A DNA stretch of 26,185 nucleotides from NCBI GenBank assembly GCA_022777455.1, contig JALFGI010000318.1, positions 1 to 26,185 of the forward strand. Reading direction: 5' to 3'. The DNA is from Clostridiales bacterium. GTDB lineage: Bacteria > Bacillota_A > Clostridia > Oscillospirales > Oscillospiraceae. Of the stretch, positions 3,554-26,185 are shown piece by piece. A program made the translations under genes and the position numbers. Each line of letters starts with the position of its first letter. The stretch's first letter is position 1. The notes beneath the pieces are model-generated. The model was given only the letters and a program-made list of their open reading frames with translations, searched no databases and was not told the DNA's origin.

Positions 3554-6500
3554 TCATTCCACGCTCTTCAGCGCCTCTGCCATATTGATTTTATCCAGGC
3601 GGAAATAGAAGATAAAATCCACCGCCAGAGCAGAAAACAGCGTAAGCGCCACTGAAATAAGCAGCGATGGCATACCCAGCAGCGGTTTAATCCAGATCAG
3701 GTCGATCTGGATCTGACTCAACACAAATTCCAGCAGCAGTTTTCCCATAGGAATGCCGAAAATTGTACCGAAAACACTGAGTACCAGGTTTTCCTTGAAC
3801 ACATACATGGCAGTTTCTCCGGCGTTGAAGCCCAGCACCTTAATGGTTGCAATCTCACGGATTCTCTCATTGATGTTGATGTTGGTCAAGTTGTACAGCA
3901 CAACCACTGCCAGCACACCGGCGCAGAACACCACAACCAGCACCACCAGGTCCAGGGCAGACATCATGGCATTCACGGATTTTGCCATCTGCTGACTCAC
4001 CGACACATTGGCAACTCCCTCGATCTTGTTCGCCGCAGCACCGGCAATATCAGGATTCTTCCCTTCCCGCACCGACACATAGGCCATCTGAAATTCCGGT
4101 TCCCGGTCCCACTGCTGCCGAATGGTTTCGGGCGTCACAATGGCATAATTGTAGACGTGGTTCTCATAGATACCGGATACGGTCAGTTGAAGCACCTCCA
4201 TATCCGGGTTGCGCAGGGTAATCTGATCCCCGGTTTTGATTCCCAGCATATCGGCAATACCGGCAGAGAGCAGCACCTCGTTGGTGCCCGGCATTGGAAT
4301 GGATTCCTCTCCCCAGTGGAAATCGATGAAGTCCGCCAGCTGTTCCCCCGCCGCAATGATGTAAATGTCCCGGGTTTGGTCATTGGCATCAATTTCACCG
4401 CTGACCTGGCGGAAGAACATGATTTCATCGGAGTAGTTGGCCATTTCCTCCCGGAAAAGCGCCTGCTCCTGAGGGGACTGTCCGTCGCTGAAATAGACCT
4501 CCATATCATACCTGGTCACATCCCGGAACTGCACGTCCACAATTTTGGAAATGGAATCCCGGATGCCGAAGCCGGTCATCAGCAGGGCGGTGCAGCCGCC
4601 GATACCCAGCAGCATCATCACCAACCGCTGGCGGAAACGGAAAATATTCCGAATGGCCACCTTGTTCAGGAAGCTGATGTGCCGCCACAGAGGCAGCTTC
4701 TCCACAAGCAGCTCCTTGCCCGCCGCAGGCGACTTGGGACGGATCAGCTCCGCAGGCACCTCTTTCAGCGCCCGATGGCAGCAGTACCAGGTAACCACCA
4801 GCATGGCCGCCGTGTACAAAGCCGTCACGGAAAGGGCCATCTTCCAGTCAAACCGCAGCTGAATGACCGGTGTGATGAATGTCATGATCTTATAGGCCTG
4901 CCAAAGCACCATGGGAAACACAACGCAGCCCAGTCCGACGCCGATAGCACAGCCTACAATGGCGCTGCTTCCGGCATATTTCAGATATTTGGAAATAATA
5001 GCCCGGTTGCTGTAGCCCAGAGCCTTCAGCGTACCGATCTGGGTGCGCTCCTCCTCCACCATGCGAGTCATGGTGGTGATACACACCAGAGCTGCCACCA
5101 GAATGAAGAACACCGGGAACACCCGGGACACGCCGGCAACAATATCGGAGTTGCTGTCCAGAGAGCAGTAGCCGATGTTGGTATTGCGGTCCAACACATA
5201 AACGCTCGTATCGGTGATGTCCGCAATGGCCTGCCTGGCATCCTCCAGCTTTTGTTTCGCTTCGGCCAGTTCCATTTCGGCGTCCGCGAATTTCTCATCC
5301 GCCTCCTGCTGGGCCTCTTCCAGGTCAACCCAGCCGTCCTCCAGCTTCTGCCGGTTCTCCTCCAGCGTAATTTGGCCTTCGGCAAGCTCTTTTTCTGCCT
5401 GTTTCAGCTCTTTTTCATAGGACTGAATCTGTTTCTGGCCATCCAGAAGCTGCTGCCGGGCAGAATTCAGCTGCTGATTCATGGAAGTACGCTGTTCAGA
5501 AATCTGTTGATACCCTTCCAAAATCTGCTGCCGTGCGGCACGGATCTGCTCTTTTCCATCCTGAACCTGCTGTTTTTGGCTTTCCAGTTCGGCCTGCTGT
5601 GCGGTTACTTCAGAAAGCTTGGCATTCAATTCCTCCCGCTGCTGATACAATTCTGCCAGCTGGGCCTCGTACTCCGCCCTGTTGGCTTGTGCCATTTCCA
5701 GCAGCTTCCGAGCATTTTCCAGGCGAGATTCCGGCACACCCAGTTTTTGGAGGTTTTCAATGGTCCGCTCTGCCGTTTCCTCGTTGATTTCTGCAACCTT
5801 GAGCAACGCTTCCAAGGGACGAATTGCCGCTTCAATCTGAACCAATCCCGTCCGAATCTGCGTCACACCGGATTTGATCTCCGTCAGACCGGCATTGATC
5901 TGAGCCAGAGCGGCATCCAGCTCCGTCTGCTTGGCATTCAGTTCCGCCTGGGTGGCAGCAAGCTGGGAGCCGGCATTGGACAGTGCCCATTCGCCCCCGG
6001 ACTGGGAAGACTCCAGTTTTTGCTTGGATTCCTCCAGCTTTGTCTTGTTGGCTTCCAGCTCCGCCCAACCGTCGGTGATTTTCTGTTCCGCTTCCAGCAG
6101 CTCTGCTTTGCCGTCGGCAAGTTCCTTTTCTCCGTCTTCCAGTTCCTTGCGGGCATCTGCCAGCTTCTGAAGAGCATCTGCCTTTTCCCGCCGGTAGTCC
6201 TGAACACCCTGCTCATATTCTTCTTGTCCATCCCGATAGGCCTGCTCCGCCTGCTCCCGTGCAGAAATCAGCCGCTGCTGGGCAAAGGGCTCCAGCAAGG
6301 GCTCCAAAGCATCTGCCGCCTGGGTGAGGGCATCGTTATATTCCTGGGAATAAATGGCATAGTCTCCCGGGATGGTGGCGTGGATTTCCGTATAGTAACT
6401 GACATCAAAGGCCTCTTCCGGAACAAAATAATAGTTTGTGATGCTGCCGCTGCCCACGGAGGTATTGCCCCGGTTGGTGTCCATATACAGCGGGGTACTC

Positions 6501-7027
6501 ACAAGTCCCACCACCGTAAAGGTGTCCACAGTCAGCTGGTCCAGGGCGGTGTCACTGTTTTCCTGGGAAATCGTCACCGTTTTGCCGATGGCAGATTTTG
6601 AATTCCGGAATCCGTCCGCCAGACATTCGTTCGGACTCTGGGGCATACGCCCCTCCAGCAGTACCAGCTTGTTGATTCGGGCAGGGATGGTATAAAATCG
6701 GTACACCGAGCCGTCTTCACCCTTTGGATTCTCCACGATCAGGTCGGAGTAAAAAACGCCCTCGGCGTCCTCAATTCCCTCCAGCTGCGAAATCTGTTCC
6801 AGCTGATCATGATCCCAGCCGTAAGAGCTGATGAGGCGCAGGTCGAACATATTCTGCTCATCGGTGTAGACCTGCCCTGTTGCCACCATGTCCGTTTTTG
6901 TGGAGCGAAGGCCCACAAAAATAGCAGTGCCCAGGGCTATGATCATGGCGATTGCAATATAACGCCCTATTGACTTCCAAATAGAGCGGCGCAGATTTCT
7001 GCGCATCATGTTTCGCTTCATTACCAT
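3554..7027 (-). CDS. FtsX-like ABC transporter permease with a large extracellular coiled coil
   Basis: Membrane subunit of a MacB/FtsX-type ABC system, a type usually acting on substrates at the outer face of the membrane rather than as a simple channel. The 1157-residue protein has one N-terminal membrane helix (about 18-38). A first extracellular domain follows, then a coiled coil of roughly residues 245-600 rich in Lys/Glu/Gln/Leu with recurring LxxG-xxEL units. After that come three helices with an FtsX core (about 620-735), a fifth helix near 780, a second extracellular domain and three C-terminal helices. It starts inside the end of the ATPase gene: the ATG at 7027 overlaps it, and a second ATG at 7021 overlaps the stop as TAATG. 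The upstream GGAGA favours 7027. The two genes form the last two of a three-gene operon. The substrate is unknown; the fold could also serve signalling to a cell-wall enzyme. Confidence 0.9.
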   Translation of the reverse strand: MVMKRNMMRRNLRRSIWKSIGRYIAIAMIIALGTAIFVGLRSTKTDMVATGQVYTDEQNMFDLRLISSYGWDHDQLEQISQLEGIEDAEGVFYSDLIVENPKGEDGSVYRFYTIPARINKLVLLEGRMPQSPNECLADGFRNSKSAIGKTVTISQENSDTALDQLTVDTFTVVGLVSTPLYMDTNRGNTSVGSGSITNYYFVPEEAFDVSYYTEIHATIPGDYAIYSQEYNDALTQAADALEPLLEPFAQQRLISAREQAEQAYRDGQEEYEQGVQDYRREKADALQKLADARKELEDGEKELADGKAELLEAEQKITDGWAELEANKTKLEESKQKLESSQSGGEWALSNAGSQLAATQAELNAKQTELDAALAQINAGLTEIKSGVTQIRTGLVQIEAAIRPLEALLKVAEINEETAERTIENLQKLGVPESRLENARKLLEMAQANRAEYEAQLAELYQQREELNAKLSEVTAQQAELESQKQQVQDGKEQIRAARQQILEGYQQISEQRTSMNQQLNSARQQLLDGQKQIQSYEKELKQAEKELAEGQITLEENRQKLEDGWVDLEEAQQEADEKFADAEMELAEAKQKLEDARQAIADITDTSVYVLDRNTNIGYCSLDSNSDIVAGVSRVFPVFFILVAALVCITTMTRMVEEERTQIGTLKALGYSNRAIISKYLKYAGSSAIVGCAIGVGLGCVVFPMVLWQAYKIMTFITPVIQLRFDWKMALSVTALYTAAMLVVTWYCCHRALKEVPAELIRPKSPAAGKELLVEKLPLWRHISFLNKVAIRNIFRFRQRLVMMLLGIGGCTALLMTGFGIRDSISKIVDVQFRDVTRYDMEVYFSDGQSPQEQALFREEMANYSDEIMFFRQVSGEIDANDQTRDIYIIAAGEQLADFIDFHWGEESIPMPGTNEVLLSAGIADMLGIKTGDQITLRNPDMEVLQLTVSGIYENHVYNYAIVTPETIRQQWDREPEFQMAYVSVREGKNPDIAGAAANKIEGVANVSVSQQMAKSVNAMMSALDLVVLVVVFCAGVLAVVVLYNLTNININERIREIATIKVLGFNAGETAMYVFKENLVLSVFGTIFGIPMGKLLLEFVLSQIQIDLIWIKPLLGMPSLLISVALTLFSALAVDFIFYFRLDKINMAEALKSVE

Positions 7028-7722
7028 TCGATCTCCGCAATGTCCATGGGATGTTCATTCTGTTCAATACTGGAAACCGTTCCGTTTTTCACCCGGATCA
7101 CCCGATCCGCCATGTCCGTCAGGGCGCTGTTATGGGTGATAATCACCACCGTCATTCCGGTCCGTCTGCCGGTATCCTGCAGCAGCTTCAAAATGGCCTT
7201 GCCGGTCTGGTAGTCCAGGGCGCCGGTGGGTTCGTCGCAGAGCAGCAGCTTGGGATTTTTCGCCAGGGCACGGGCTATGGCCACCCGCGGCGGCTCGCCG
7301 CCGCAAAGCTGGCGGGGGAAATTTTTCATTCTGGCCTCCCGGCCCCCGGCCTTCCGAACCTGCGCCGCAGGAAGGGGCTTATTGCCAATCTGGTTGGCCA
7401 CCTCCACAATTTCCAGCGCGTTCAGATTGCCGATCAGATTATAAAACTGGAACACAAACCCCACATCCATCCGGCGGTACAGGGTAAGCTCCCTCCGGTC
7501 CATGGCGGAAATGTCTTTCCCGTCCAGCAACACCTGGCCGGTGGTCAGGCTGTCCATTCCCCCAAGGATATTCAGCAGCGTCGTTTTACCGGCACCGGAG
7601 GGACCAACAATTACCACCAGTTCGCCTTTTTCAATTTCAAAGCTGGCATCATGAAGGGCATTGATCTGCACCTCGCCCATCTGGTAGGTTTTTCCCACAT
7701 CTTTAAATTCAACAAAGGCCAT
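7021..7722 (-). CDS. ABC transporter ATPase (MacB/LolD type) with an abnormal signature motif
   Basis: Cytoplasmic ATPase that drives the permease encoded directly downstream. The 233-residue product has Walker [10 protein letters not shown] at 40-48, a Q loop in VFQFYN near 90-95, Walker [13 protein letters not shown] ending about residue 170, and the H-loop in VIITHNS. The ABC signature reads LCGGEPPR (139-146), where the family has LSGGEQQR. Just before it, the usual VGL-type helix reads RKAGGRE. The rest of the protein is ordinary. The start at 7722 has GGGGAGGGG at proper spacing. The open frame continues upstream to 7947 but only through gtrA in another frame, so the longer form is rejected. 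ATP hydrolysis may be impaired if these changes are real; sequence error is the alternative. Confidence 0.88.
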
Positions 7723-15159: not shown

Positions 15160-15903
15160 TTATTTGGACACGTCCAGGAAATCCCGTCGGTATTGAGAGG
15201 GGGTGACGCCCTCCGACTTTTTAAACACCTTGGTAAACACCCGGTAATCCCCGAAGCCCAGCTGCTCCGAAATCTCTCCGATGGACAGTGCAGTAGAGAG
15301 CAGCAGCTTCTTCGCCCGCTCCATACGGATGTTGGTCAGATAGGCCAGGAAATTCACTCCGATCTCACTTTTGAACAGCTGGCTGATATACTGGGCGCTA
15401 AGGTGGAATTCCTCCGCCAGAACGCTCAGACTGATATCTTCGCTCAAATGCTCCTGCAAATACCGGGTGATGGCCATAATGGGCCGTTCCTCCCCCTGGG
15501 TTTCCTCCTGGGGCAGCTGCTGACGGAACAGGGCAATTTTCAGATTGTCAATACAAGCGCCGAATTCCTCATAGTTCACAGGTTTCAGAATATAGTCCGT
15601 GATCTTGAGCCGAAGGGCCTCCCTGCAATAGGAAAAATCATCGTAGCCGGACACAATGACAAAAGCGATCTCCGGATGCTTCATGCGGCTGCACTGGATC
15701 ACCTTTAAGCCATTCATAATGGGGATGTTGATGTCCATGATCACAATGTCCGGCTGCAGGGCATCGATCTGGTTCATGGCTTCCATACCGTCAGCGGCTT
15801 CCCCAACCACCTGGCAGTCGTGGGCTTCCCAGTCAAACAGATGCTTGAAGCCCTCCCGGATCATGATTTCATCGTCCACCAACAAAACCCGCAATTTTTT
15901 CAT
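15160..15903 (-). CDS. response regulator, AraC-type DNA-binding output (YesN-like)
   Basis: Transcription regulator of 247 residues. The receiver domain (about 4-118) has the acidic pair D10/D11, phosphoacceptor D57 (IVIMDINIP), S85 in VIVSGYDD and K107 in ILKPV. A short linker leads to an AraC-type double helix-turn-helix domain (about 145-243) with SAQYISQLFKSEIGVNF and GFGDYRVFTKVFKKSEGVTPSQYR. The ATG overlaps the kinase stop (ATGA), so the pair is translated together. By analogy with YesM/YesN systems it should activate target promoters by binding direct repeats upstream of -35. The best candidates in this window are its own operon and the pspC operon. Confidence 0.93.
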   Translation of the reverse strand: MKKLRVLLVDDEIMIREGFKHLFDWEAHDCQVVGEAADGMEAMNQIDALQPDIVIMDINIPIMNGLKVIQCSRMKHPEIAFVIVSGYDDFSYCREALRLKITDYILKPVNYEEFGACIDNLKIALFRQQLPQEETQGEERPIMAITRYLQEHLSEDISLSVLAEEFHLSAQYISQLFKSEIGVNFLAYLTNIRMERAKKLLLSTALSIGEISEQLGFGDYRVFTKVFKKSEGVTPSQYRRDFLDVSK

Positions 15904-17204
15904 ATTGCTTCCTCCTCCAGCGGCAGCCGAATGTGGGCTGTCACACCGCCCGTTTCATTTTCCGTATACCAAAGGCCGTACTCCTGGCCGCAGAGCAGTT
16001 TGATCCGCTTCTGAACATTCAGGATTCCGATGCTGTTTCCTGTCAGCTTGGCAGGCTGCTTGGCGTAGGAGCGCAGCATCCGGTCAACGGCTTCCTTTTT
16101 TCCTTCCTCAAATCCGGCGCCTGTATCACGAATGCAGATTTCCATCTGGTCATCTCCAACCCGGCGGGCGGAAATGGAGACCTCGCCCCGGTAGCCCTTG
16201 TTTTTCAGGCCGTGGAGCAGACTGTTTTCCACAATGGGCTGCATAATGAAATTGGGCACCTGCGTCCCGCCCAGGTCAGGATCAATGTCATAGTTACACC
16301 GAAGCTCCGGATAGCGGTAGCACATCAGCTCCATATAGGCTTCCAGAAGCTCCATTTCATCGTCCAGAGTAACCATGGGCCGGTCTACTTTGACGCTGAG
16401 CCGGAAGAAATCCACCAGGCGCATCAGCAGCTCCGCCACCTTCTTGTCCCCGTTCAGCTGGGCCTGGATGCGGATGGTATCCAGGGTATTATAGAGAAAA
16501 TGGGGATTTACCTGACTTTTCAGGTACAGCATGGACATCTTCTGTTCCAGCAGCTCCGCCCTGAGAATGTCAGGGTTTTCCAGAATCAGGTAAAACGCCA
16601 GCGTAATCAGGGTAATGCCCAGTCCACTGATCAGCCAGGTATGGTTGAAGGCCTGGAGGGTCGTGCCGATCAGCTCCACGGTGCAGGCAATCAGAATGGC
16701 ATTTTTCTCCTTCCTGTCAATTCCCTTCCAGTTGAACAGCAGCAGCCCGGTGCCCAGGAGAAAATAGAACGCGACGCTGAGATAGCAGAAGGTCACGTGG
16801 ATGCCGTCGGAGTAATTCCCGGCAGGGGTGACTGCGTAATGAATGGGCAGGAGCATATCCCCCACCTCCGCCACCACCAGATAAATCCCGGCAAGGGTAT
16901 CCAGCCGCCGGGGCTTGCCGGTTTCCTCCTCCACCAGAATGGCGATATACTGGTAGAACAGATAAAACACCAGGATCATGGTCCCGATGAACAGCCGGTG
17001 GAACATATTATTCAGAAACAGGGGCACTGTTTCCAGATGATTCACCGTATAAACCGTGATTCCGTCAAAGACCAGGTGGCACAAAACCACCACCAGAAGC
17101 ATGGAAAAGGTGTGGTGCAGCTGGGTAAATTTCTTTTCCGCGGCAAAATAGGAATAGGCCACAAAGGCCAGCACCAGAAACAGTGCTATCTCCATTCGAA
17201 TCAT
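15900..17204 (-). CDS. sensor histidine kinase (YesM/LytS type)
   Basis: Membrane kinase of 434 residues that phosphorylates the response regulator encoded next to it. The N-terminal half (about 4-207) holds six or seven hydrophobic helices with short loops and no large extracellular domain, so it probably senses within or at the membrane. The His_kinase domain carries H235 in SQVNPHFLYNTLD. The GHKL ATPase domain has the N-box QPIVENSLLHG, RDTGAGF and GNSIGILNVQKRI. The ATG at 17204 follows GAGGAGGAATCAGG. The few-loop architecture resembles intramembrane-sensing kinases of cell-envelope responses, but the family assignment by sequence is the HisK_5TM/YesM group. The signal is unknown. Confidence 0.92.
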   Translation of the reverse strand: MIRMEIALFLVLAFVAYSYFAAEKKFTQLHHTFSMLLVVVLCHLVFDGITVYTVNHLETVPLFLNNMFHRLFIGTMILVFYLFYQYIAILVEEETGKPRRLDTLAGIYLVVAEVGDMLLPIHYAVTPAGNYSDGIHVTFCYLSVAFYFLLGTGLLLFNWKGIDRKEKNAILIACTVELIGTTLQAFNHTWLISGLGITLITLAFYLILENPDILRAELLEQKMSMLYLKSQVNPHFLYNTLDTIRIQAQLNGDKKVAELLMRLVDFFRLSVKVDRPMVTLDDEMELLEAYMELMCYRYPELRCNYDIDPDLGGTQVPNFIMQPIVENSLLHGLKNKGYRGEVSISARRVGDDQMEICIRDTGAGFEEGKKEAVDRMLRSYAKQPAKLTGNSIGILNVQKRIKLLCGQEYGLWYTENETGGVTAHIRLPLEEEAI

Positions 17205-17396: not shown

Positions 17397-19079
17397 TTAC
17401 ATCACCATCTGAGCGGATTTCATAATTTCCGATTCGATTTCCCGGGCTGCCGCTTCCGTTTCCCCGCTGACGGAAACATAAAACTTCAGCTTGGGTTCCG
17501 TACCGGAAGGACGCACGACGATGGAGCAATGATCCTCCAGCAGGAATTTCAGCACATCCGACTTGGGCAGTCCATCCAGACCGGTTCCATAGTCCAGCAG
17601 CTTCACGACCCTCTTCCCGCCAAACTCCGAAATACCGCTGCGGAAGGATTTCATGATCTGCTGCATTTTTCCGAAGCCGGCACTTCCATCAAATTCAAAG
17701 CTGTGCAGGGTATTGAGGCAGTAGCCATAGGTTTTGTACAGCTCCTCCAGCTTCTCCAAAAGGCTGATGCCCCGGGTGGCATAGTAGCTGAACATTTCGC
17801 AGATCATGTACGCGCCGTTCACGCCGTCCTTGTCCCGGACGTAGGCGCCGGTGAGATAGCCATAGCTTTCCTCAAAGCCAAAAATAAAGCTATCCGCCCT
17901 GCCCTGCTGTTCCAGCTTGCCGATCTGCTCGCCGATAAACTTGAAACCCGTCAGCACATTCACGGTTCTGACACCGTAGTGCCGGGCAATCTGTTCTCCC
18001 ATATCCATGGTGACAATGGTTTTCACCATCACAGGATCGGCAGGCATTTTGCCATGCTTGATGCGCTGGCTGCAAATATAGTCCAGCAGCAGCATTCCCG
18101 TCTCATTGCCGGAGAGCAACTGATAGGTCCCCGCCGGAGTTTTCACGGCAATGCCCACCCGGTCGCAATCCGGGTCGGTGGCAAGGAGCAAATCCGCCTT
18201 GCATCTGCGGGCATATTCCATGCCCAAGGCCATGGCTTCCCGAATCTCCGGGTTGGGATAGGGGCAGGTGGGGAAATTGCCGTCCGGCTGCTCCTGCTCC
18301 GGCACCACCGTGATGTTGGTATAGCCCATCTCCCGAAGGGTCCGGGTGACCGGCTTTAAACCGGAACCGTTCAGGGGCGTGTATACGATGGAGACATTTT
18401 GATCCACCGTCTCGCCATACAGCACCGACTGCCGCTTTACTTCCTCCACAAAGGCGGTATAAACTTCCCCGGGGATGTACTGAATTCTGCCGTTTTCCAT
18501 CGCCGCATCAAAACTGCCCGACAGAACATCTTCAAAAACATCCAGCTTTTCGATATCGGCCAGGATTTCCGCCGCCGCTTCGGTGGTGATCTGGCAGCCG
18601 TCGGAGCCGTAAACCTTGTAGCCGTTGTACTTGCTGGGGTTATGGGATGCCGTGATCATGACTCCGGCAGAGCAGCCCAGATACCGGGTTGCAAAGGAGA
18701 CCGTGGGCACCGGCATCAGTGTGGGCCAGATGTGAACCCTTACCCCATTGGCCGCGAAAACAGACGCTGCCGTCTTTGCAAACACATCGCTTTTGATGCG
18801 GCTGTCGTAGCCAATGACAACCGAGGGAGTCGGGAACTTCTTTTTCAGGTAGTCCGCCAGACCCTGGGATGCTTTTGCCACGGTATAGACGTTCATCCGG
18901 TTGGTTCCGGCACCGATAACGCCCCGAAGGCCTCCCGTACCGAAGGTCAAATCCCGGTAGAAAGCATCCTCCATTCGGGGCCTGTCCATCTGCCGCAGCT
19001 CCCGGGCCACGTCCTCATCTGCGCCGGCACGGGACAGCCAGCGTTCGTATTCCTTCTGAATATCCGCAGTCTGTTTCAT
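17397..19079 (-). CDS. phosphoglucomutase/phosphomannomutase
   Basis: Interconverts hexose-1- and hexose-6-phosphates. Beside manA and manC its likely role is mannose-6-P to mannose-1-P, though the sequence type also suits glucose phosphates. The 560-residue length fits the PgcA-like alpha-D-phosphohexomutases. Motifs: FGTGGLRG at 46-53; active-site TASHNP at 143-148 with phosphoserine S145; the Mg-binding loop DPDCDR at 302-307; the sugar-binding FEESYGY near 390; and the phosphate-binding RPSGTEPK at 523-530. The ATG at 19079 follows AGAGGATAAG, 4 bp after the manA stop. It is the last gene of the operon. Confidence 0.9.
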   Translation of the reverse strand: MKQTADIQKEYERWLSRAGADEDVARELRQMDRPRMEDAFYRDLTFGTGGLRGVIGAGTNRMNVYTVAKASQGLADYLKKKFPTPSVVIGYDSRIKSDVFAKTAASVFAANGVRVHIWPTLMPVPTVSFATRYLGCSAGVMITASHNPSKYNGYKVYGSDGCQITTEAAAEILADIEKLDVFEDVLSGSFDAAMENGRIQYIPGEVYTAFVEEVKRQSVLYGETVDQNVSIVYTPLNGSGLKPVTRTLREMGYTNITVVPEQEQPDGNFPTCPYPNPEIREAMALGMEYARRCKADLLLATDPDCDRVGIAVKTPAGTYQLLSGNETGMLLLDYICSQRIKHGKMPADPVMVKTIVTMDMGEQIARHYGVRTVNVLTGFKFIGEQIGKLEQQGRADSFIFGFEESYGYLTGAYVRDKDGVNGAYMICEMFSYYATRGISLLEKLEELYKTYGYCLNTLHSFEFDGSAGFGKMQQIMKSFRSGISEFGGKRVVKLLDYGTGLDGLPKSDVLKFLLEDHCSIVVRPSGTEPKLKFYVSVSGETEAAAREIESEIMKSAQMVM

Positions 19080-19083
19080 TCAC

Positions 19084-20061
19084 TTATCCTCTTACATCCA
19101 AAAACTGGGCCTGGCCATGGATTTTCATGGGCGCAGAATCCGCGGGGACAAAAATACAGTCGCCCTTATAAAAGACGATTTCGTCCCTTCCAAACCGAAT
19201 GATGCCGCAGCCGTTGACACAGAGCAGCACCCGGAAGGACAGCGCATCCGCCCGGTAAGTTACCTGCTGCCGCCGCTCGGTGTTGACGATCATGCGGTAA
19301 ACCTCGAAGTATTTGCACCGGCAAAGCAGCTCCGAGGCCACGCCCTGCCGGTATTTCAGTACCCGCAGGGGCTGCTTTGGCTCTGCGCTGCTGTTCAGAT
19401 TTGCCGCCCGGAGTGCTTTGTCAATATGCAGCTCCCGCTTTTTTCTGTCCTTTCCCACCCGGTCATAGTCATAAAGCCGATAGGTCAGGTTGGAACTTTC
19501 CTGGATTTCCGCCACCAACGCTCCGGCACCAATGGCATGGATGGTTCCGGCTTCCACGAAGAACACATCATCCTTCTGCACCGGCACCTTCTGAAGGGCT
19601 TTCAGAAGTGTTCCTTCCGCAATCATCCGACGCATTTCTTCCCGGTTGCTGTCATGCTTCAAGCCATAGATCAGGCTGGCATCCTTTCCGGCATCCAAAA
19701 CATACCACATTTCCGACTTGCCCCGCTGGCCGTTTTCATTGACCAAGGCAAATTCATCGGTGGGATGGACCTGGACGGACAAATCCTGTTTGGCATCAAT
19801 GAATTTGATCAGAATGGGCAGGGAACTATCTCCGACGTGTCTGGTTCCCAGGTATTCCGGATGGGATGCAATCACATCAGCCAGGCTCTCCCCTTCAAAC
19901 ATTCCGCCCGCCACGAAGCTCAGGCCGTCAGGATGGGTGGAGCATTCCCAGGTTTCCGCCAGAGGAGACAGCTCTATTCGTTTTTCGAATTCGTCGTTTA
20001 ATCGTTTTCCGCCCCAGAGGTAGTCCTTTCCGGAAGGGCGAAGCAAAAACGGGTTATTCAC
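19084..20061 (-). CDS. manA: mannose-6-phosphate isomerase, class I
   Basis: Zinc enzyme converting fructose-6-P to mannose-6-P, feeding GDP-mannose synthesis. The 325-residue product has the short bacterial form. The zinc ligands are Q97 and H99 in SVQVHPTDEFA, E117 in GKSEMWYVL, and H175 in EAGTIHAIGAG. The C-terminal beta domain continues to the end. Translation starts at GTG (20061) after AAAGGAAGGG. The gene lies 31 bp after manC and 4 bp before the mutase gene, so the three GDP-mannose supply genes are adjacent. Confidence 0.95.
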   Translation of the reverse strand: MNNPFLLRPSGKDYLWGGKRLNDEFEKRIELSPLAETWECSTHPDGLSFVAGGMFEGESLADVIASHPEYLGTRHVGDSSLPILIKFIDAKQDLSVQVHPTDEFALVNENGQRGKSEMWYVLDAGKDASLIYGLKHDSNREEMRRMIAEGTLLKALQKVPVQKDDVFFVEAGTIHAIGAGALVAEIQESSNLTYRLYDYDRVGKDRKKRELHIDKALRAANLNSSAEPKQPLRVLKYRQGVASELLCRCKYFEVYRMIVNTERRQQVTYRADALSFRVLLCVNGCGIIRFGRDEIVFYKGDCIFVPADSAPMKIHGQAQFLDVRG

Positions 20062-20092: not shown

Positions 20093-21409
20093 TCAATATT
20101 CCAGCTGATACTTCTGCTTGTCCTGGACGTTGATCTCCTTGCCCAGCTGCACTTCGATCAGCTTCAGTTCCGTCTCCGCTACCACCGTATGGCGGCATCC
20201 GGCAGACATGGTGATCACATCACCGGCCTTTACCGCTTGCTCAAAGCCATCCACAATGGTTCTTCCCCGACCGGCGATCACCACCCAGACCTCATCCCGG
20301 TTCCGGTGGCTGTGGTAATTCATACTCTGCCCGGGATTCAGGGTAACCTTGATGGTCATGGATTCCTTCTCCACATCCAGCACCTTAAAGCTGCCCCAGC
20401 TCTTGTCGGCAAACATGATTTGCTGCTCGAATTCATCCACATAGGGCTTGATGTAGCTGCTGCGGTCCTTATCCGCCACCAGGATTCCCTCCGGGGAGGC
20501 GGATATCACCACATCATGGAGGCCCATAGCAAGAATCGGTACGTCCATCTCATTGACAATATGAACGCCCCCACAGGTGTGATCCAATACGCCCTTGCCG
20601 ACCACCGATTCCCCCATGGCTTCCGTCAGGGTGTTCCAGGTGCCCAGGTCCTTCCAGGCGCCGGAAAACCGTTTTACCTGGATTTTCTCTTCCTTTTCCA
20701 CCACGGCGTAGTCAAAGGAGATTTTTGTCAGGGTATCGTACTTGGCAAAAAGGTCGTCGTAATCCGTAAAATCAATCAGCTCGTGGGCCTTGTCCAGCAC
20801 ATATTTCAGCTTGTAGGCGAACACGCCGCCGTTCCAGAGGGCACCCTGCGCAATGTACTCTGCCGCCACGTCGGCGGTGGGTTTTTCCTTGAAGGTCTTT
20901 ACCCTTGCAATGGGGTCGGTGTTCTCGGGAATGATATAGCCGTACTTCTCGCTGGGATAGGTGGGCTCCATACCCATGAGGACCAGGTTCGCTTCTCCCT
21001 TGGCGGCCTGTTCCGCCAGACCCGTCAACGCTGTAAAGTAATCATCCTCCACATAGGGGTCTACTGGGCAGACCACCACAGGCTCCTCCGGAGAAACCTT
21101 CATCACATCCGCCAGGTAAGCGCTGGCCAGGGCGATGGCCGGGAAGGTATCCCGGCGGCAGGGCTCTACAGAAATCCCCACCTCGTCCCCCAGTTGGTTA
21201 TGGATGGAAGACACCTGAGTCTTGCTGGTGGCGATGGTCACCGTTGCGGAAGGGTCCGCCTTTTTGATCTGGCGGTAGACCCGCTGGACCATGGATTCAT
21301 AGGTGCCGTCCGCCTGCTTGAAAATCTTGATAAACTGCTTGGAACGGATATCATTGGACAGCGGCCACAGACGTTTTCCGGAGCCGCCGGAAAGCAAAAC
21401 AATATTCAT
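20093..21409 (-). CDS. manC: mannose-1-phosphate guanylyltransferase with C-terminal cupin domain
   Basis: Makes GDP-mannose from mannose-1-P and GTP. The nucleotidyltransferase domain begins with LSGGSGKRLWPLS (6-18). It then has PCRRDTFPAIALA near 82-94, VCPVDPYV (the metal-binding DxD-like region), KTFKEKP in place of the usual FxEKP, and LWNGGVFAYK. A left-handed helix region leads to a cupin domain (about 340-438) with YHSHRNRDEVWVVIAGRG. At 438 residues it is slightly shorter than the two-domain ManC proteins of about 470. The cupin resembles type II phosphomannose isomerases, but the isomerase step is probably carried out by the adjacent ManA. The start has GGAGAAG at good spacing. Confidence 0.94.
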   Translation of the reverse strand: MNIVLLSGGSGKRLWPLSNDIRSKQFIKIFKQADGTYESMVQRVYRQIKKADPSATVTIATSKTQVSSIHNQLGDEVGISVEPCRRDTFPAIALASAYLADVMKVSPEEPVVVCPVDPYVEDDYFTALTGLAEQAAKGEANLVLMGMEPTYPSEKYGYIIPENTDPIARVKTFKEKPTADVAAEYIAQGALWNGGVFAYKLKYVLDKAHELIDFTDYDDLFAKYDTLTKISFDYAVVEKEEKIQVKRFSGAWKDLGTWNTLTEAMGESVVGKGVLDHTCGGVHIVNEMDVPILAMGLHDVVISASPEGILVADKDRSSYIKPYVDEFEQQIMFADKSWGSFKVLDVEKESMTIKVTLNPGQSMNYHSHRNRDEVWVVIAGRGRTIVDGFEQAVKAGDVITMSAGCRHTVVAETELKLIEVQLGKEINVQDKQKYQLEY

Positions 21410-21433: not shown

Positions 21434-22285
21434 TCAGTACATTTGCTGACGGGGATACCACCAGGTCGTCCGGTGGGCAGTGGCACTGTTGCACAGCCGA
21501 ATCTGCTCCATATCCTCCGGCGCGATCTCGAAATCCAGCTTCCGGTTTTCCTGCAGATGCAGCAGATTTCGGGAGGAACAGATGGGAACATTGCCCATTT
21601 GCAGATTCCATTTCAGGGCGATCTGTGCCCGGGAAACAGCGTATTTCTCCCCAATTTCCTGCAATTTACTTTTCACTTCCTCCTCCGTGACGGAGAGGGA
21701 GCCCCAGCCCTGAACGGCGATGCCCCGGTTCCGGCAGAAGTCAGCCAGACCTCTTTGCTGGAACTGGGGATTGATTTCCAGCTGGTTGATTTCCGGGACC
21801 ACCCGGCAGTTCTCCGTGATCTGAAGAACGTGGCGTTCCAGGAAGTTGGAAACGCCGATGTGCTTCACCGTTCCCTCTTCCGCAAGCGCTTCCATTTCCT
21901 TCCAGACGGAGATATTTCTCTGCGCATAACTTAGCTCCGAGTATCTGGGCACCGGCTGGTGAATCAGATAGGAATCCACGAAGTCAAGCCCCAGCCGCTC
22001 CAGGCTTTCCTGAAGCTGGGGACGCACCGAGCTGCCGTCATAGGGCATCACGGGATAGAATTTGGTTTGAATGAACAGTTCGTCCCTGGAAACACCCCGG
22101 GCAAAGAGGCTTTTCAGGGCCTTACCCAGGATTTCCTCCGTACCGTAGGAGTAAGCGGTGTCGAGAAAGCGGTAGCCGCTGAGCACCGCCTGCTCGATCA
22201 GCTCCGCCATTTTTTCAGGCTGCTCTTTGTCCAGCTCCGCCGTGCCCAGGCCGATTCCATAGGGCCAATCCTGAATATTACACAT
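21434..22285 (-). CDS. aldo/keto reductase
   Basis: NAD(P)H-dependent carbonyl reductase of 283 residues with a TIM-barrel fold. Counting from this start, the catalytic tetrad is D42, Y47, K75 and H109, within GYRFLDTAYSYG, IQTKFY and YLIHQP. The family's HIGVSNF and NQLEINPQ segments follow. The usual C-terminal cofactor phosphate motif (I-P-K-S) is replaced by ICSSRN, so cofactor preference is open. The start is taken at ATG 22285, with GGGAG nine bases upstream. Another in-frame ATG at 22294 has its GGGAG too close. Both overlap the transketolase gene end (22278). Operon position suggests reduction of a keto sugar or related intermediate. Confidence 0.88.
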   Translation of the reverse strand: MCNIQDWPYGIGLGTAELDKEQPEKMAELIEQAVLSGYRFLDTAYSYGTEEILGKALKSLFARGVSRDELFIQTKFYPVMPYDGSSVRPQLQESLERLGLDFVDSYLIHQPVPRYSELSYAQRNISVWKEMEALAEEGTVKHIGVSNFLERHVLQITENCRVVPEINQLEINPQFQQRGLADFCRNRGIAVQGWGSLSVTEEEVKSKLQEIGEKYAVSRAQIALKWNLQMGNVPICSSRNLLHLQENRKLDFEIAPEDMEQIRLCNSATAHRTTWWYPRQQMY

Positions 22286-23234
22286 GGTCTGCATCTCCCA
22301 TCATGGCCAGTATCTGCTTTTTCAGTCCGTTTTTGTCGATTTCAAACATGGCATACAGGTAATCCGGCCTTGCCATGGGAACAAAACGGTCAGAAATGCC
22401 CGCGATTTTGAATTTCGTCCCCAGGCCCTCTTCCGCGATCACCGCTGCAACCTGATAGCCCAAGCCGCCGATGGTATTGTGATCCTGGGCTGCCAGTACA
22501 AAGCCTGTTTTCGCCGCATCCCGGATGGCCTGCTTGTCCACCGGCTTGATGGTGTGCATATCCACCACCCGAATGCGCTTTCCGGTTTCCTGCCGGATTT
22601 CCTCAGCGGCTTCCACCGCATACTGCACCAAAACGCCGGAGCAGATAATGGCACCGTCATCGCCCTCAACGGGGATGGATGCCTTGCCGATCTGATATTC
22701 ATAGTCCACCGGGTAAATGTCAACAGAGGGAACAACACTGACCCGCATGTAGATGGGGCCGTTCCAGTCCAAAGTGGCCTGCAGCATCTTCTGAGCCTGA
22801 AGTCCGTCGCTTGGCTCCAGCACCGTCATGTTGGGAAAGGCGGTCATGATGCCGCAATCCTCAATGCTCCAGTGGGTGGCACCGGAGAGTCCCCCGGAGA
22901 CACCAGCGTAAACGCCCACTAAGACTGCGTTGGCATTGGCGTAGGCAATGTCCGTGCGGCACTGCTCGCAGGCTCTCATAGAGACAAAGGATGCCATGGA
23001 AAAGGCATAAGGCTTGAAGCCCTCCCGGCAAAGACCGGCTGCAAAGCCCACCATGTTCTGTTCGGCAATGCCAGTATTATACATTCTGTCCGGGTAACGC
23101 TCCATGAATTTTTCCATCCGGCAGGACCGGAACAAATCCGCGGAGACCGCAACAACCTTCTCGTCCTGTGCCGCCAGGTCCACCATATAATTGCCAACCA
23201 CTTCACGGACCCATCTTTTCTTCTTTTCCACCAT
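22278..23234 (-). CDS. transketolase, C-terminal subunit
   Basis: The pyrimidine-binding and C-terminal half of a two-subunit transketolase, 318 residues. E58 in NTGIAEQNM is the glutamate that activates the thiamine diphosphate cofactor. SGATHWSIEDCGIM follows, matching the conserved GPTHQ-xxED segment. The C-terminal domain holds VVDMHTIKPVDKQAI and DHNTIGGLGYQVA. The start ATG at 23234 overlaps the stop of the N-terminal subunit gene (TGATG). The preceding GTG at 23237 is also possible. Split transketolases occur both in pentose metabolism of Clostridia and in polysaccharide loci. Here the genes sit inside a nucleotide-sugar operon, pointing to a special two-carbon transfer rather than a housekeeping role. 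Confidence 0.92.
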   Translation of the reverse strand: MVEKKKRWVREVVGNYMVDLAAQDEKVVAVSADLFRSCRMEKFMERYPDRMYNTGIAEQNMVGFAAGLCREGFKPYAFSMASFVSMRACEQCRTDIAYANANAVLVGVYAGVSGGLSGATHWSIEDCGIMTAFPNMTVLEPSDGLQAQKMLQATLDWNGPIYMRVSVVPSVDIYPVDYEYQIGKASIPVEGDDGAIICSGVLVQYAVEAAEEIRQETGKRIRVVDMHTIKPVDKQAIRDAAKTGFVLAAQDHNTIGGLGYQVAAVIAEEGLGTKFKIAGISDRFVPMARPDYLYAMFEIDKNGLKKQILAMMGDADHV

Positions 23235-24070
23235 CACAGCTCCGCCTTTTCCTGGATTTCTTTCATGGCCTGCTCATATTGCTCTGCCGTCAGTTTCCCG
23301 GCATGCCAGTTCACATTATCTTCCATGAAGCTGACGCCGTTTCCTTTTACGGTGTGGGCCACAATGACGGTAGGAACCTGGGCGGTGGGCTCCGGAAGGC
23401 TGTCGAAGGCAGCCTTGATCTGCTCCATGCAGTGGCCGTTCATTTCCAGAACATTCCAACCGAAGGCCCGGTATTTTTCACCGACGCTGTTGATGCCCGT
23501 CAGTTCTTCCAACGTTCCGTCGGCTTCCAGGCCGTTGCAGTCAACAACGGCAACCAGATTGCCCAGGCGATAATGGGCTGCGTGCATGGCAGCTTCCCAC
23601 ACGGACCCCTCGCCCTGCTCTCCGTCGCCCATCACCACATATACCCGGCTCTCGGTATTTCCCTTCCGCCGCAGTCCGGCAGCGATTCCGGCGCCGATGG
23701 ACAGGCCGTGGCCCAGGCTTCCTGTGGAAACCTCCACAAAGGGATTGACCAGCTTGCAGGAATGCATGGAAAACCTGCCGCCGTTGGTTGCATATTCTTC
23801 AAAAAATTCCTCTTTGCGGAAGCACCCGATTGCCGCCTGATTCAGGCTGGTCACCGCTGCGGCATGTCCCTTGGAGAGGATAAACCGATCCCGCCCCTCT
23901 TCCTCCGGGTTCTGGGGGTTGTATCGCATTTGATACTGCCACAATGCAGTCATCACATCCGCCACGGACAAGTCGCCGCCGATGTGGATGCTCTTTTCGG
24001 CGCAGAGAGTCAGCAGGTCCTTTTTGATCTGCAGCGCCGCCTCTTTCAGCTGGCTCAGGGTTGTCAGCAT
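23234..24070 (-). CDS. transketolase, N-terminal subunit
   Basis: The diphosphate-binding half of the two-subunit transketolase, 278 residues. Motifs: DRFILSKGHAA (61-71) with the conserved substrate/cofactor histidine, STGSLGHGLS (115-124), and the thiamine diphosphate signature beginning GDGEQGEG at 148-155 and closing at DCNG (177-180). Together with the C-terminal subunit it makes a full enzyme transferring two-carbon ketol units. It starts 6 bp after the GDP-sugar epimerase/reductase gene and is coupled to the C-terminal subunit gene by overlap. Confidence 0.92.
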   Translation of the reverse strand: MLTTLSQLKEAALQIKKDLLTLCAEKSIHIGGDLSVADVMTALWQYQMRYNPQNPEEEGRDRFILSKGHAAAVTSLNQAAIGCFRKEEFFEEYATNGGRFSMHSCKLVNPFVEVSTGSLGHGLSIGAGIAAGLRRKGNTESRVYVVMGDGEQGEGSVWEAAMHAAHYRLGNLVAVVDCNGLEADGTLEELTGINSVGEKYRAFGWNVLEMNGHCMEQIKAAFDSLPEPTAQVPTVIVAHTVKGNGVSFMEDNVNWHAGKLTAEQYEQAMKEIQEKAEL

Positions 24071-24076
24071 GTTCTT

Positions 24077-25015
24077 TTACTCCTTATCGTTTTGATTGGA
24101 CAAATACCAATTGTAGAGCTTCCGAATCCCCTGTTCCAGGGAAAGGGTGGATTTCCAGCCCAACTCATGAATTTTGCTGCTGTCGCAGAGTCTGCGCATC
24201 ATGCCGTCGGGCTTTGTGGGATCGGTGACAATCTCCCCTTCAAAGCCAGTGATTCGTTTGATCATTTCGGACAGCTCCAGAATGGACACTTCCTCCCCTG
24301 TTCCGATGTTCACAGGCTCGTAGCCGGAATAATGATTCAGCAGGAAAATGCCCGCGTCCGCCAGGTCATCCGTATCGATAAACTCCCGCAGCGCATTGCC
24401 CGTCCCCCACAGGGTAACACTGGGGGCATTGCTGCGCTTTGCCTCCCGGTATTTCACCAGCAGGGCGGGAATCACATGGCTGTGCCGGGGATCGAAATTG
24501 TCACCGATGCCGTAGGCGTTGGCGGGAATGGCGGTGATAAAGTCCACCCCATACTGCTGATGCAAATAGCTGCACAGCCGTTGACCGCCAACCTTTGCCA
24601 GGGCATAGCCCTCGTTGGTGATTTCAGGCAAGCCGGTAAGCAGCATTTCCTCCTTCATGGGCTGGGGGCAATGCTTGGGGTACATGCAGGCACTTCCCAA
24701 AAACAAAAACTTTTTCACATGGTTTTGAAAGGCAGACCAGATGAGATTCTGCTCCATCTGCATATTCTCATAGAAAAAGTTTGCGGGTGCCTCGCTGTTT
24801 GCCCGGATGCCCCCTACTTTCGCGGCGGCATCGATCACATATTCCGGCTGCTCCTGGGCAAAAAAGGATTGTACCGCTGCCTGATCCAGCAAATCCAGCT
24901 CCCCATGGGTCCGCAGAACCAGATTATGGTATCCCTGCTCCCGGAGCTTTCGCACAAACGCGCTGCCCACCAGGCCGGTATGACCGGCTACATAAATTTT
25001 CGCATTCTGATCCAT
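24077..25015 (-). CDS. fcl: GDP-L-fucose synthase-like epimerase/reductase
   Basis: Short-chain dehydrogenase-type enzyme that epimerises and reduces a GDP-4-keto-6-deoxy sugar with NADPH. The 312-residue protein has the nucleotide loop GHTGLVG (11-17). It keeps all catalytic residues of E. coli GDP-fucose synthase, each shifted by one: S108 and C110 (GSACMYPK), Y137 and K141 (YALAK), and H180 (SHVIPALL). The start at 25015 is chosen because it lies 7 bp after the upstream stop and gives the family N-terminus; longer versions run into the neighbouring gene. Next to a 3-dehydratase it may instead act as a colitose-synthase-like enzyme on a 3,6-dideoxy substrate. That is inference; residue pattern alone fits fucose synthase best. 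Confidence 0.88.
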   Translation of the reverse strand: MDQNAKIYVAGHTGLVGSAFVRKLREQGYHNLVLRTHGELDLLDQAAVQSFFAQEQPEYVIDAAAKVGGIRANSEAPANFFYENMQMEQNLIWSAFQNHVKKFLFLGSACMYPKHCPQPMKEEMLLTGLPEITNEGYALAKVGGQRLCSYLHQQYGVDFITAIPANAYGIGDNFDPRHSHVIPALLVKYREAKRSNAPSVTLWGTGNALREFIDTDDLADAGIFLLNHYSGYEPVNIGTGEEVSILELSEMIKRITGFEGEIVTDPTKPDGMMRRLCDSSKIHELGWKSTLSLEQGIRKLYNWYLSNQNDKE

Positions 25016-25022
25016 CACGGCC

Positions 25023-26185
25023 TCATTTCCGGAAGCCATCCAGGTACTTTCCAATGCAGTCAATGAGATAATCCAGTTCTTCCTGCTTCAGACCATGGTG
25101 GCAGCCCACGTAGAAACCGTTGTGGTCAATGTAAGCCGCATGGGGATACTGGGGCTCCAGGTCGCCGAAGATTTTCTGGTAGATGGGCTGATTCAGCAGC
25201 GGGAGCATGGGTCTTGTCTCGATGTTGCATTTTTCCAGATACAGAACAAAATCCTTCTGTTTGATACCCGTGCCCTCCTTGATGACAATGGGGAACATCA
25301 TGTAGGTATGCTCGATGTTGTCGGGGTGCCGGGGCAGTTGGATCATGTCCTCATATTTTTCCAGGCCGCGGATGAGATAATTGGCGTTCTCATGGCGCTT
25401 GCCCATGATCTCATCCTTCCGCTCCAGCTGTGCCAGACCCAGAGCGCCTTCAATCTCCCCCACCCGGTAGCTGTAGCCGATGCGCTCAAAGCAGAACCGA
25501 CGGTCCAAATCCGTCTGCATTCTCTTGGGACAGACCGTTTTTCCATCGGAAGCAATGCACCGTTCGCAGGTGCAGGCACGGCCGTGGGCCACCAGGGAGC
25601 GGAGAATCTCCATAAAGTGCCGGTCGCTGGTGCAGACCACGCCGCCCACGCCGGTGGTGATGGTGTGGGCCACATAGGTGCTGAAGCAGGTGATACATCC
25701 GAAGCTGCCCACACTCCGGCCGTCCACCTTGGCAAAATGGGCCTCGGCACAATCCTCGATCACCCGCAAACCGTGCTTTTGGGCAATGGCCATGATGGCA
25801 TTCATATTGCAGGGCATACCGAAAGTGTGTACCGGGATGATGCACTTGGTATGCTCCGTGATGTGCCGCTCAATGTCGTTGGGGTCCATGTTGTAGGTGT
25901 CCGGCTCCACATCCACGAAGGTCACCTTCAGCCCTGCGTGAAGGCAGGCATTGGAGGTGGCAATAAAGGTGATGGCAGGCACCAGAACCTCCGTATTCTC
26001 ATCCCAGCCGTCCACCTCTTTCAGGGTTTCCAGGGCAAGATGCAGGGCAGAGGTACCGCTGTTGCACATGACACCGTATTTCTGGCCATGGGCCTGGGCA
26101 AATTCCCGCTCAAACCGATTGACATATTTTCCCTGGGAAAGACGCTGATTGTCCAGTGCGTCCATCACATATTTCTTTTCAATAT
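25023..26185 (-). CDS. DegT-fold PLP enzyme with Lys-to-His change: probable sugar 3-dehydratase (ColD/RfbH-like), N-terminus outside window
   Basis: The fold is that of DegT/DnrJ/EryC1/StrS sugar aminotransferases. CNSGTSALHLALE binds the cofactor phosphate, and D in VIEDCAEA is the ring-nitrogen ligand. At the Schiff-base lysine position (codon 25665-25667) the residue is histidine, in YVAHTITTGVGG where aminotransferases have K-N-[IL]-T-T-G-E-G-G. ColD (GDP-4-keto-6-deoxymannose 3-dehydratase) and RfbH/E1 have the same His replacement. A cysteine set follows in GRACTCERC...VC (codons at 25572, 25566, 25557 and 25530), with another in EDC (25749). Its spacing is near the C-X57-C-X1-C-X7-C [2Fe-2S] motif of E1. 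The frame stays open to the window edge (… IEKKYVMDALD), so about 10-20 N-terminal residues are missing. The product would be a 4-keto-3,6-dideoxy sugar; ordinary aminotransfer is unlikely. Confidence 0.8.
   Translation of the reverse strand, partial: IEKKYVMDALDNQRLSQGKYVNRFEREFAQAHGQKYGVMCNSGTSALHLALETLKEVDGWDENTEVLVPAITFIATSNACLHAGLKVTFVDVEPDTYNMDPNDIERHITEHTKCIIPVHTFGMPCNMNAIMAIAQKHGLRVIEDCAEAHFAKVDGRSVGSFGCITCFSTYVAHTITTGVGGVVCTSDRHFMEILRSLVAHGRACTCERCIASDGKTVCPKRMQTDLDRRFCFERIGYSYRVGEIEGALGLAQLERKDEIMGKRHENANYLIRGLEKYEDMIQLPRHPDNIEHTYMMFPIVIKEGTGIKQKDFVLYLEKCNIETRPMLPLLNQPIYQKIFGDLEPQYPHAAYIDHNGFYVGCHHGLKQEELDYLIDCIGKYLDGFRK

Follow-up and report, generated by a model that had tools for sequence, protein, structure and literature searches.

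What does an enzyme of the DegT fold do when a histidine stands where the cofactor-binding lysine is expected, when several of its cysteines recall an iron-sulphur enzyme, and when its neighbours are genes for guanosine diphosphate (GDP) sugars? This question is raised by the gene at the end of positions 1 to 26,185 of contig JALFGI010000318.1 from a Clostridiales bacterium (GCA_022777455.1); the whole of this 26,185-nucleotide stretch was analysed and is called the window here. The accepted split among the sugar 3-dehydratases of this fold is between GDP sugars handled without a cluster (ColD) and cytidine diphosphate (CDP) or deoxythymidine diphosphate (dTDP) sugars handled with a [2Fe-2S] cluster (E1, SpnQ). 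Those that a review (PMC8987622) names as well characterised are E1, ColD, and SpnQ; according to it, SpnQ combines the histidine with an iron-sulphur cluster and receives electrons from general reductases. The reading favoured here, with a probability of roughly 0.6, is that the window gene belongs to a family of pyridoxamine 5'-phosphate (PMP)-dependent GDP-4-keto-6-deoxymannose 3-dehydratases, probably of the iron-sulphur type; cofactor, cluster, substrate, and activity are deduced from sequence, conservation, genomic context, a gene fusion, and phylogenetic trees.

The window protein scores above the gathering threshold of PF01041 (DegT/DnrJ/EryC1/StrS), and the fold agrees with this assignment. 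Since a 99%-identical relative, P0003, has 399 residues, the window fragment lacks 13 N-terminal residues; these were read from P0003, and the gene upstream was read from the 92%-identical locus L001. In fragment numbering, His173 aligns with His220 of E1 and with the lysine of GDP-perosamine synthase that binds pyridoxal 5'-phosphate (PLP). A Lys-to-His replacement at this internal-aldimine position had been the central claim of the initial annotation, and it is borne out both here and in every homologue listed below; the surrounding stretch of the window protein, STYVAHTITTG, contains no lysine. The cysteine spacing that had been described, C-X58-C-X1-C-X2-C-X8-C, is likewise present (residues 145, 204, 206, 209, and 218), and the named relatives found in the protein search carry the labels DegT family aminotransferase or perosamine synthetase, much as had been foreseen.

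The relatives fall into two clades. Clade A, which includes the window, comprises Clostridia and Negativicutes; a protein search and a scan of genome contigs found 49 loci, of which 48 (53-92% identical) were used together with the window, while L049 from Prochlorococcus (29% identical) was excluded from the locus counts. A plasmid search found a 37%-identical relative on a plasmid of Solidesulfovibrio magneticus, and a second protein search with this relative as the query reached clade B, whose sampled rows are 36-41% identical to P0003. The few named members of clade B are mostly Desulfobacterota (Thermodesulfobacteriota, Desulfobacteraceae, Pseudodesulfovibrio, Geobacter, Deltaproteobacteria, and one Proteobacteria), and three IMG/VR stretches (L117, L118, and L119) also encode clade B proteins with the histidine and the cysteine loop. 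Because a sample of 398 genomes from one host's phylum gave a single strong match, that host itself (the other listed matches being 30-36% identical), the distribution of the family appears to be patchy.

Conservation was assessed in 240 listed homologues, the best 120 of 7394 for clade A (P0003 included) and the best 120 of 6237 for clade B. The histidine and all four loop cysteines are kept in 240/240, and between the first and the last loop cysteine no residue other than the cysteines reaches 99%. Ahead of the final loop cysteine the spacing is X8 in all 120 listed clade A proteins; in clade B it is X8 in 95, X9 in 19, X7 in 4, and X10 in 2. Conserved cysteines separated by free residues would be the mark of metal ligands, and the candidate ligand set is the single loop C-X1-C-X2-C-X7-10-C. 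The upstream cysteine of the EDC motif, Cys145, is present in 120/120 proteins of clade A and 0/120 of clade B, and it is probably not a cluster ligand. (Three further cysteines, Cys114, Cys125, and Cys361, occur in 120, 119, and 120 of the 120 listed clade A proteins and in 0, 0, and 37 of the 120 in clade B.)

The genomic context points to a GDP sugar. Counts were made by tblastn against reference genes in 49 loci, the window included, with a fused domain counted as fcl. Within 8 kilobases (kb), an fcl-like gene is found in 47/49 loci, gmd in 40/49, and manC in 36/49; both flanks extend for at least 6 kb in 23 loci, and among these the numbers anywhere in the locus are 23, 22, and 18, respectively. 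L001 has the same gene order as the window and has gmd upstream, so the window's own gmd probably lies just past the window end. In five Selenomonadales loci (L034, at 5592-7715, L035, L036, L038, and L041) Fcl and the DegT protein form a single protein of 707-709 residues (the Pfam check of these fusions was done on L034), and shorter or cut versions of the fusion are seen in L033, L039, and L040. The GDP-sugar context that had been read from the window is thereby widened, taking in gmd, fcl, and manC together with an Fcl fusion. In addition to the family enzyme, four loci (L004, L013, L027, and L029) encode a separate RfbH, accompanied by CDP genes and sharing 47-54% identity with P0125; this speaks for different nucleotide-sugar substrates of the two enzymes.

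Comparison with E1/RfbH, the CDP-4-keto-6-deoxyglucose 3-dehydratase, indicates how far the cysteines are E1-like. The printed E1 sequence has cysteines at 192, 193, 251, 253, 257, and 261 (two more come later); of these, C193, C251, C253, and C261 are the reported [2Fe-2S] ligands. Positions 251, 253, and 261 are common to both clades of the family, and to this extent the E1-like set proposed in the initial annotation stands. Its first member does not: the EDC cysteine falls one residue before C193, on C192, and Per of E. coli O157, a lysine aminotransferase, has it as well. At position 193 itself the family has Ala in 149 of 152 aligned rows (among which the 31 rows from the loci were pattern-filtered) and Ser in two; the single Cys belongs to the RfbH of L029, one of those 31 rows and also the sole exception at Cys145 and Cys209. 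In clade B this residue is Ala in 121/121. Within the tree set, Cys at 193 is found in 19/19 RfbH/E1 rows, both ColD-type rows, one other His-type row, and 4/18 rows of the lysine group, and because of these last four it is by itself no proof of a cluster. The column of Cys209, by comparison, is Cys in the family and Gly in 19/19 RfbH rows. Together, Ala at 193 and Cys at 209 argue that the fourth ligand, if a cluster exists, has shifted into the loop. The family consequently departs from the E1/RfbH pattern C193-X57-C251-X1-C253-X7-C261 in the Ala at 193, the extra Cys at 209, and a longer spacing between 253 and 261. The best NCBIfam model is nevertheless that of RfbH, NF011936, on which P0003 scores 249.2 bits and P0123 scores 238.4, under the cut-off of 423; the RfbH P0125 scores 712.

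Two observations concern the RfbH side itself. The RfbH branch of L029 (4444 onward) and L086 has a longer loop, C-X1-C-X10-C rather than X7, and keeps the cysteine at position 193. A plasmid of Sinorhizobium mexicanum presents a mirror case, with CDP context and ColD-like anatomy: directly after a CDP-glucose 4,6-dehydratase (TIGR02622, 428 bits) it encodes a His-type DegT protein that lacks the cysteine loop (L114:2923-4251), scores 318 bits against the RfbH model (cut-off 423), and falls on the RfbH side of the tree.

The trees place the family apart from E1/RfbH. In a first tree of 67 rows, built with the loop columns excluded, A+B form a single clade (95/88), RfbH/E1 form another (97/84) that does not contain the family, and both ColD-type rows are placed on the RfbH side (100/99). 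In the approximately unbiased (AU) test, a clade uniting A+B with RfbH was rejected (p-AU 0.0095), and one uniting A+B with ColD was rejected less strongly (p-AU 0.028). One row of this tree, K_L092, assigned beforehand to the lysine group, carries Pro in place of the lysine and falls beside RfbH on a very long branch; it is absent from a second tree of 60 rows, from which ten long or odd rows of the first (E. coli ColD included) were removed and to which three were added. With one archaeal ColD-type row left, this second tree agrees with the first (A+B 98/92, RfbH 100/100, and the archaeal row with RfbH 100/99). The trees are unrooted, with a three-way join linking A+B, ColD+RfbH, and the lysine enzymes. 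A position among the lysine enzymes with the lysine at another aligned site, which the initial annotation had named as one outcome that would overturn it, was not found. An actinobacterial RfbH-like protein encoded near an NDP-hexose (nucleoside diphosphate hexose) 2,3-dehydratase gene, P0126, served as a stand-in for SpnQ; its cysteines follow the pattern of E1, and in the tree it groups with RfbH. SpnQ-type enzymes resemble the family in the histidine and in having an iron-sulphur cluster, which in the family is probable, and differ from it in acting on dTDP sugars.

Taken together, these comparisons suggest a reaction in which GDP-4-keto-6-deoxy-D-mannose, made by the gmd product, would be converted to GDP-4-keto-3,6-dideoxy-D-mannose. 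PMP would form a Schiff base with the 4-ketone; His173, at the aldimine-lysine site, would accept the PMP proton, and the C3 hydroxyl would depart. The resulting unsaturated intermediate would then be reduced, most likely by electrons from an iron-sulphur cluster held by Cys204, Cys206, Cys209, and Cys218 in one loop, and a general ferredoxin or flavodoxin, rather than a dedicated one, would pass electrons to the cluster. The Fcl/ColC-like partner would follow with epimerisation at C5 and reduction at C4. Its mechanism should resemble that of E1 or ColD, though in its cysteines and its place in the tree the enzyme belongs with neither.

Several points weigh against this reading. A crude motif scan of 48 loci recognised no ferredoxin- or E3-type reductase gene, although SpnQ, too, relies on general reductases. 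A single loop with four cysteines could be a zinc site. Because A+B and E1/RfbH lie on different sides of the three-way join, the cluster of E1 is not simply transferable to the family. In the AlphaFold model of P0003 (63-row alignment; mean predicted local distance difference test score 89, predicted template modelling score 0.89), the block means are 82, 57, and 71 for the cysteine loop and 59 for the His stretch, and these are among the least certain parts. Finally, the GDP evidence for clade B comes from few loci: in L109 an Fcl (354 of 500 bits) but no gmd was recognised, while L119 has a gmd-like gene (387 of 415 bits), a weak Fcl-like gene (135 of 500), and a nucleotidyltransferase closest to dTDP-glucose synthases. 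The kinases of L109 and L119 both match the model of the heptose kinase HddA best (133 and 139 of 600 bits); the best models for the nucleotidyltransferase of L109 are mannose-1-phosphate and heptose-1-phosphate guanylyltransferases (HddC/manC-like); since all of these matches are under the cut-off, GDP-heptose substrates in clade B are only a suggestion.

The main alternative, unlikely but the strongest of those considered, is a ColD-like GDP-sugar 3-dehydratase in which glutamate regenerates the cofactor and the loop holds a structural zinc or otherwise plays no redox part. ColD of E. coli O55, the GDP-4-keto-6-deoxy-D-mannose 3-dehydratase, adjoins a gene annotated as GDP-L-fucose synthase family, presumably ColC, given its known pathway. 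The DegT fold, the histidine at the lysine position, nearby GDP-mannose genes, and an Fcl-like partner are thus common to ColD and the family, and this context suits the alternative, as do the negative motif scan and the tetracysteine sites in single loops that are common for zinc. However, ColD is 30% identical, has no such loop, and joins E1/RfbH in the tree, whereas three of the four loop cysteines of the family occupy positions reported as [2Fe-2S] ligands in E1, at the same place after the catalytic histidine. The combination of a cysteine loop with GDP context is found in neither ColD nor E1, as the initial annotation had also held.

An improbable reading is that of an aminotransferase, such as a perosamine-type one, or some other PMP enzyme whose lysine has been lost or moved. 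The database names given to relatives agree with such an assignment; GDP-perosamine synthase is the best fold match, with E1 and ColD within 2.5 Z units of it; and the lysine enzymes share one join with the other two groups. However, GDP-perosamine synthase (Per/PerA) has the lysine and no cysteine loop, while the histidine is invariant in the 240 listed homologues and no lysine lies around it in the window protein; according to the review, this histidine marks the dehydratases E1, ColD, and SpnQ (PMC8987622). (A gene of E. coli O157 Sakai annotated as arnB, L108:16258-17352, best matches perosamine synthetase structures, with 346 bits to 3bn1.) Least probable of all is an ordinary E1/RfbH member with the usual [2Fe-2S] cluster, the EDC cysteine as first ligand, and a CDP or other sugar: RfbH is the best NCBIfam match and C-X58-C resembles C-X57-C, but the score is far under the cut-off, the EDC cysteine is off by one in clade A and absent from clade B, the union with RfbH was rejected, and four loci have a separate RfbH with CDP genes.

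The neighbouring genes (Table 1) add a further element. In the window Fcl, the catalytic residues common to E. coli Fcl and ColC (Ser, Cys, Tyr, Lys, and His) are conserved, and Lys replaces Arg at Fcl position 187. Between fcl and manC sit the genes for a split transketolase and an aldo/keto reductase. Some module dependent on thiamine diphosphate (ThDP), whether transketolase-like, similar to the E1 component of pyruvate dehydrogenase, or YerE-like, occurs anywhere in the stretch in 19/49 loci, several of these matches being weak, near 30% identity; in L004, L007, L013, L027, and L029 CDP genes lie beside the module and may own it. YerE carries out the ThDP-dependent branching of a CDP sugar. 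Pathways of this type resemble the window in having a ThDP enzyme beside a 3-dehydratase, and differ in that a YerE-type enzyme and CDP genes take the place of the split transketolase and GDP genes. By analogy, C3 deoxygenation may prepare the 4-ketone for ThDP-dependent branching, which fits the gene sets; in the window, the 4-ketone may also accept a two-carbon unit from the split transketolase to give a branched GDP-sugar.

Other arrangements were noted. In L027 and L029 split transketolase genes adjoin RfbH and CDP-sugar genes, and a Methylovirgula plasmid (L115:2860-5991) carries rfbF, rfbG, and RfbH with a transketolase pair, a possible CDP counterpart of the branching module. Just past the sugar genes of the window, on the same strand, an AraC-type response regulator and a sensor histidine kinase were read from the translations at 15160-17204.

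Table 1. Coordinates of the genes and residues discussed (window positions unless a locus is named).
Feature	Position	Strand	Basis or remark
DegT-fold putative GDP-sugar 3-dehydratase	25023..26183	-	PF01041, 317.6 bits; stop codon included, 5' end beyond window
His173 codon CAC, PLP-lysine position	25665..25667	-	Alignment with solved structures; 240/240 listed homologues
EDC Cys145	25749..25751	-	Kept in clade A only; aligned with E1 C192
Loop Cys204	25572..25574	-	Aligned with E1 C251
Loop Cys206	25566..25568	-	Aligned with E1 C253
Loop Cys209	25557..25559	-	Gly in 19/19 RfbH/E1 tree rows
Loop Cys218	25530..25532	-	Aligned with E1 C261
fcl/colC-like epimerase-reductase	24077..25063	-	NF047922, 418 bits, under cut-off 500; likely start ATG 25015
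Transketolase N-terminal half	23234..24070	-	PF00456
Transketolase C-terminal half	22278..23237	-	PF02779, PF02780
Aldo/keto reductase	21434..22294	-	PF00248
manC-like mannose-1-phosphate guanylyltransferase	20093..21409	-	PF00483, PF01050; TIGR01479, 189.5 bits, under cut-off 372.95
manA, mannose-6-phosphate isomerase class I	19084..20061	-	TIGR00218, 152.9 bits, over cut-off 116.2
Phosphohexomutase (putative phosphomannomutase role)	17397..19079	-	Profile match
ColD, GDP-4-keto-6-deoxy-D-mannose 3-dehydratase, E. coli O55	L106:33702-34868		Matches PDB 2gms/3gr9 at about 880 bits

A wider proposal, to which we give slightly less than even odds, is that the family constitutes a third, separate lineage of 3-dehydratases with its own single-loop iron-sulphur site, devoted to GDP-manno sugars that would be hexoses in clade A and perhaps heptoses in clade B. 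The cluster route would then have been won twice or lost in ColD, and in many anaerobes the enzyme would feed its 4-ketone to the branching of GDP-sugars by ThDP enzymes. The family, found in Clostridia and Negativicutes of gut and rumen and in Desulfobacterota, would cross the accepted split, with a different candidate ligand set, and it makes testable whether cluster-assisted PMP deoxygenation had a single or a double origin. For genes of this kind, AHx together with the four-cysteine loop provides a simple rule for re-annotation. The family also suggests that gut anaerobes display colitose-like and branched GDP-sugars that have so far escaped recognition.
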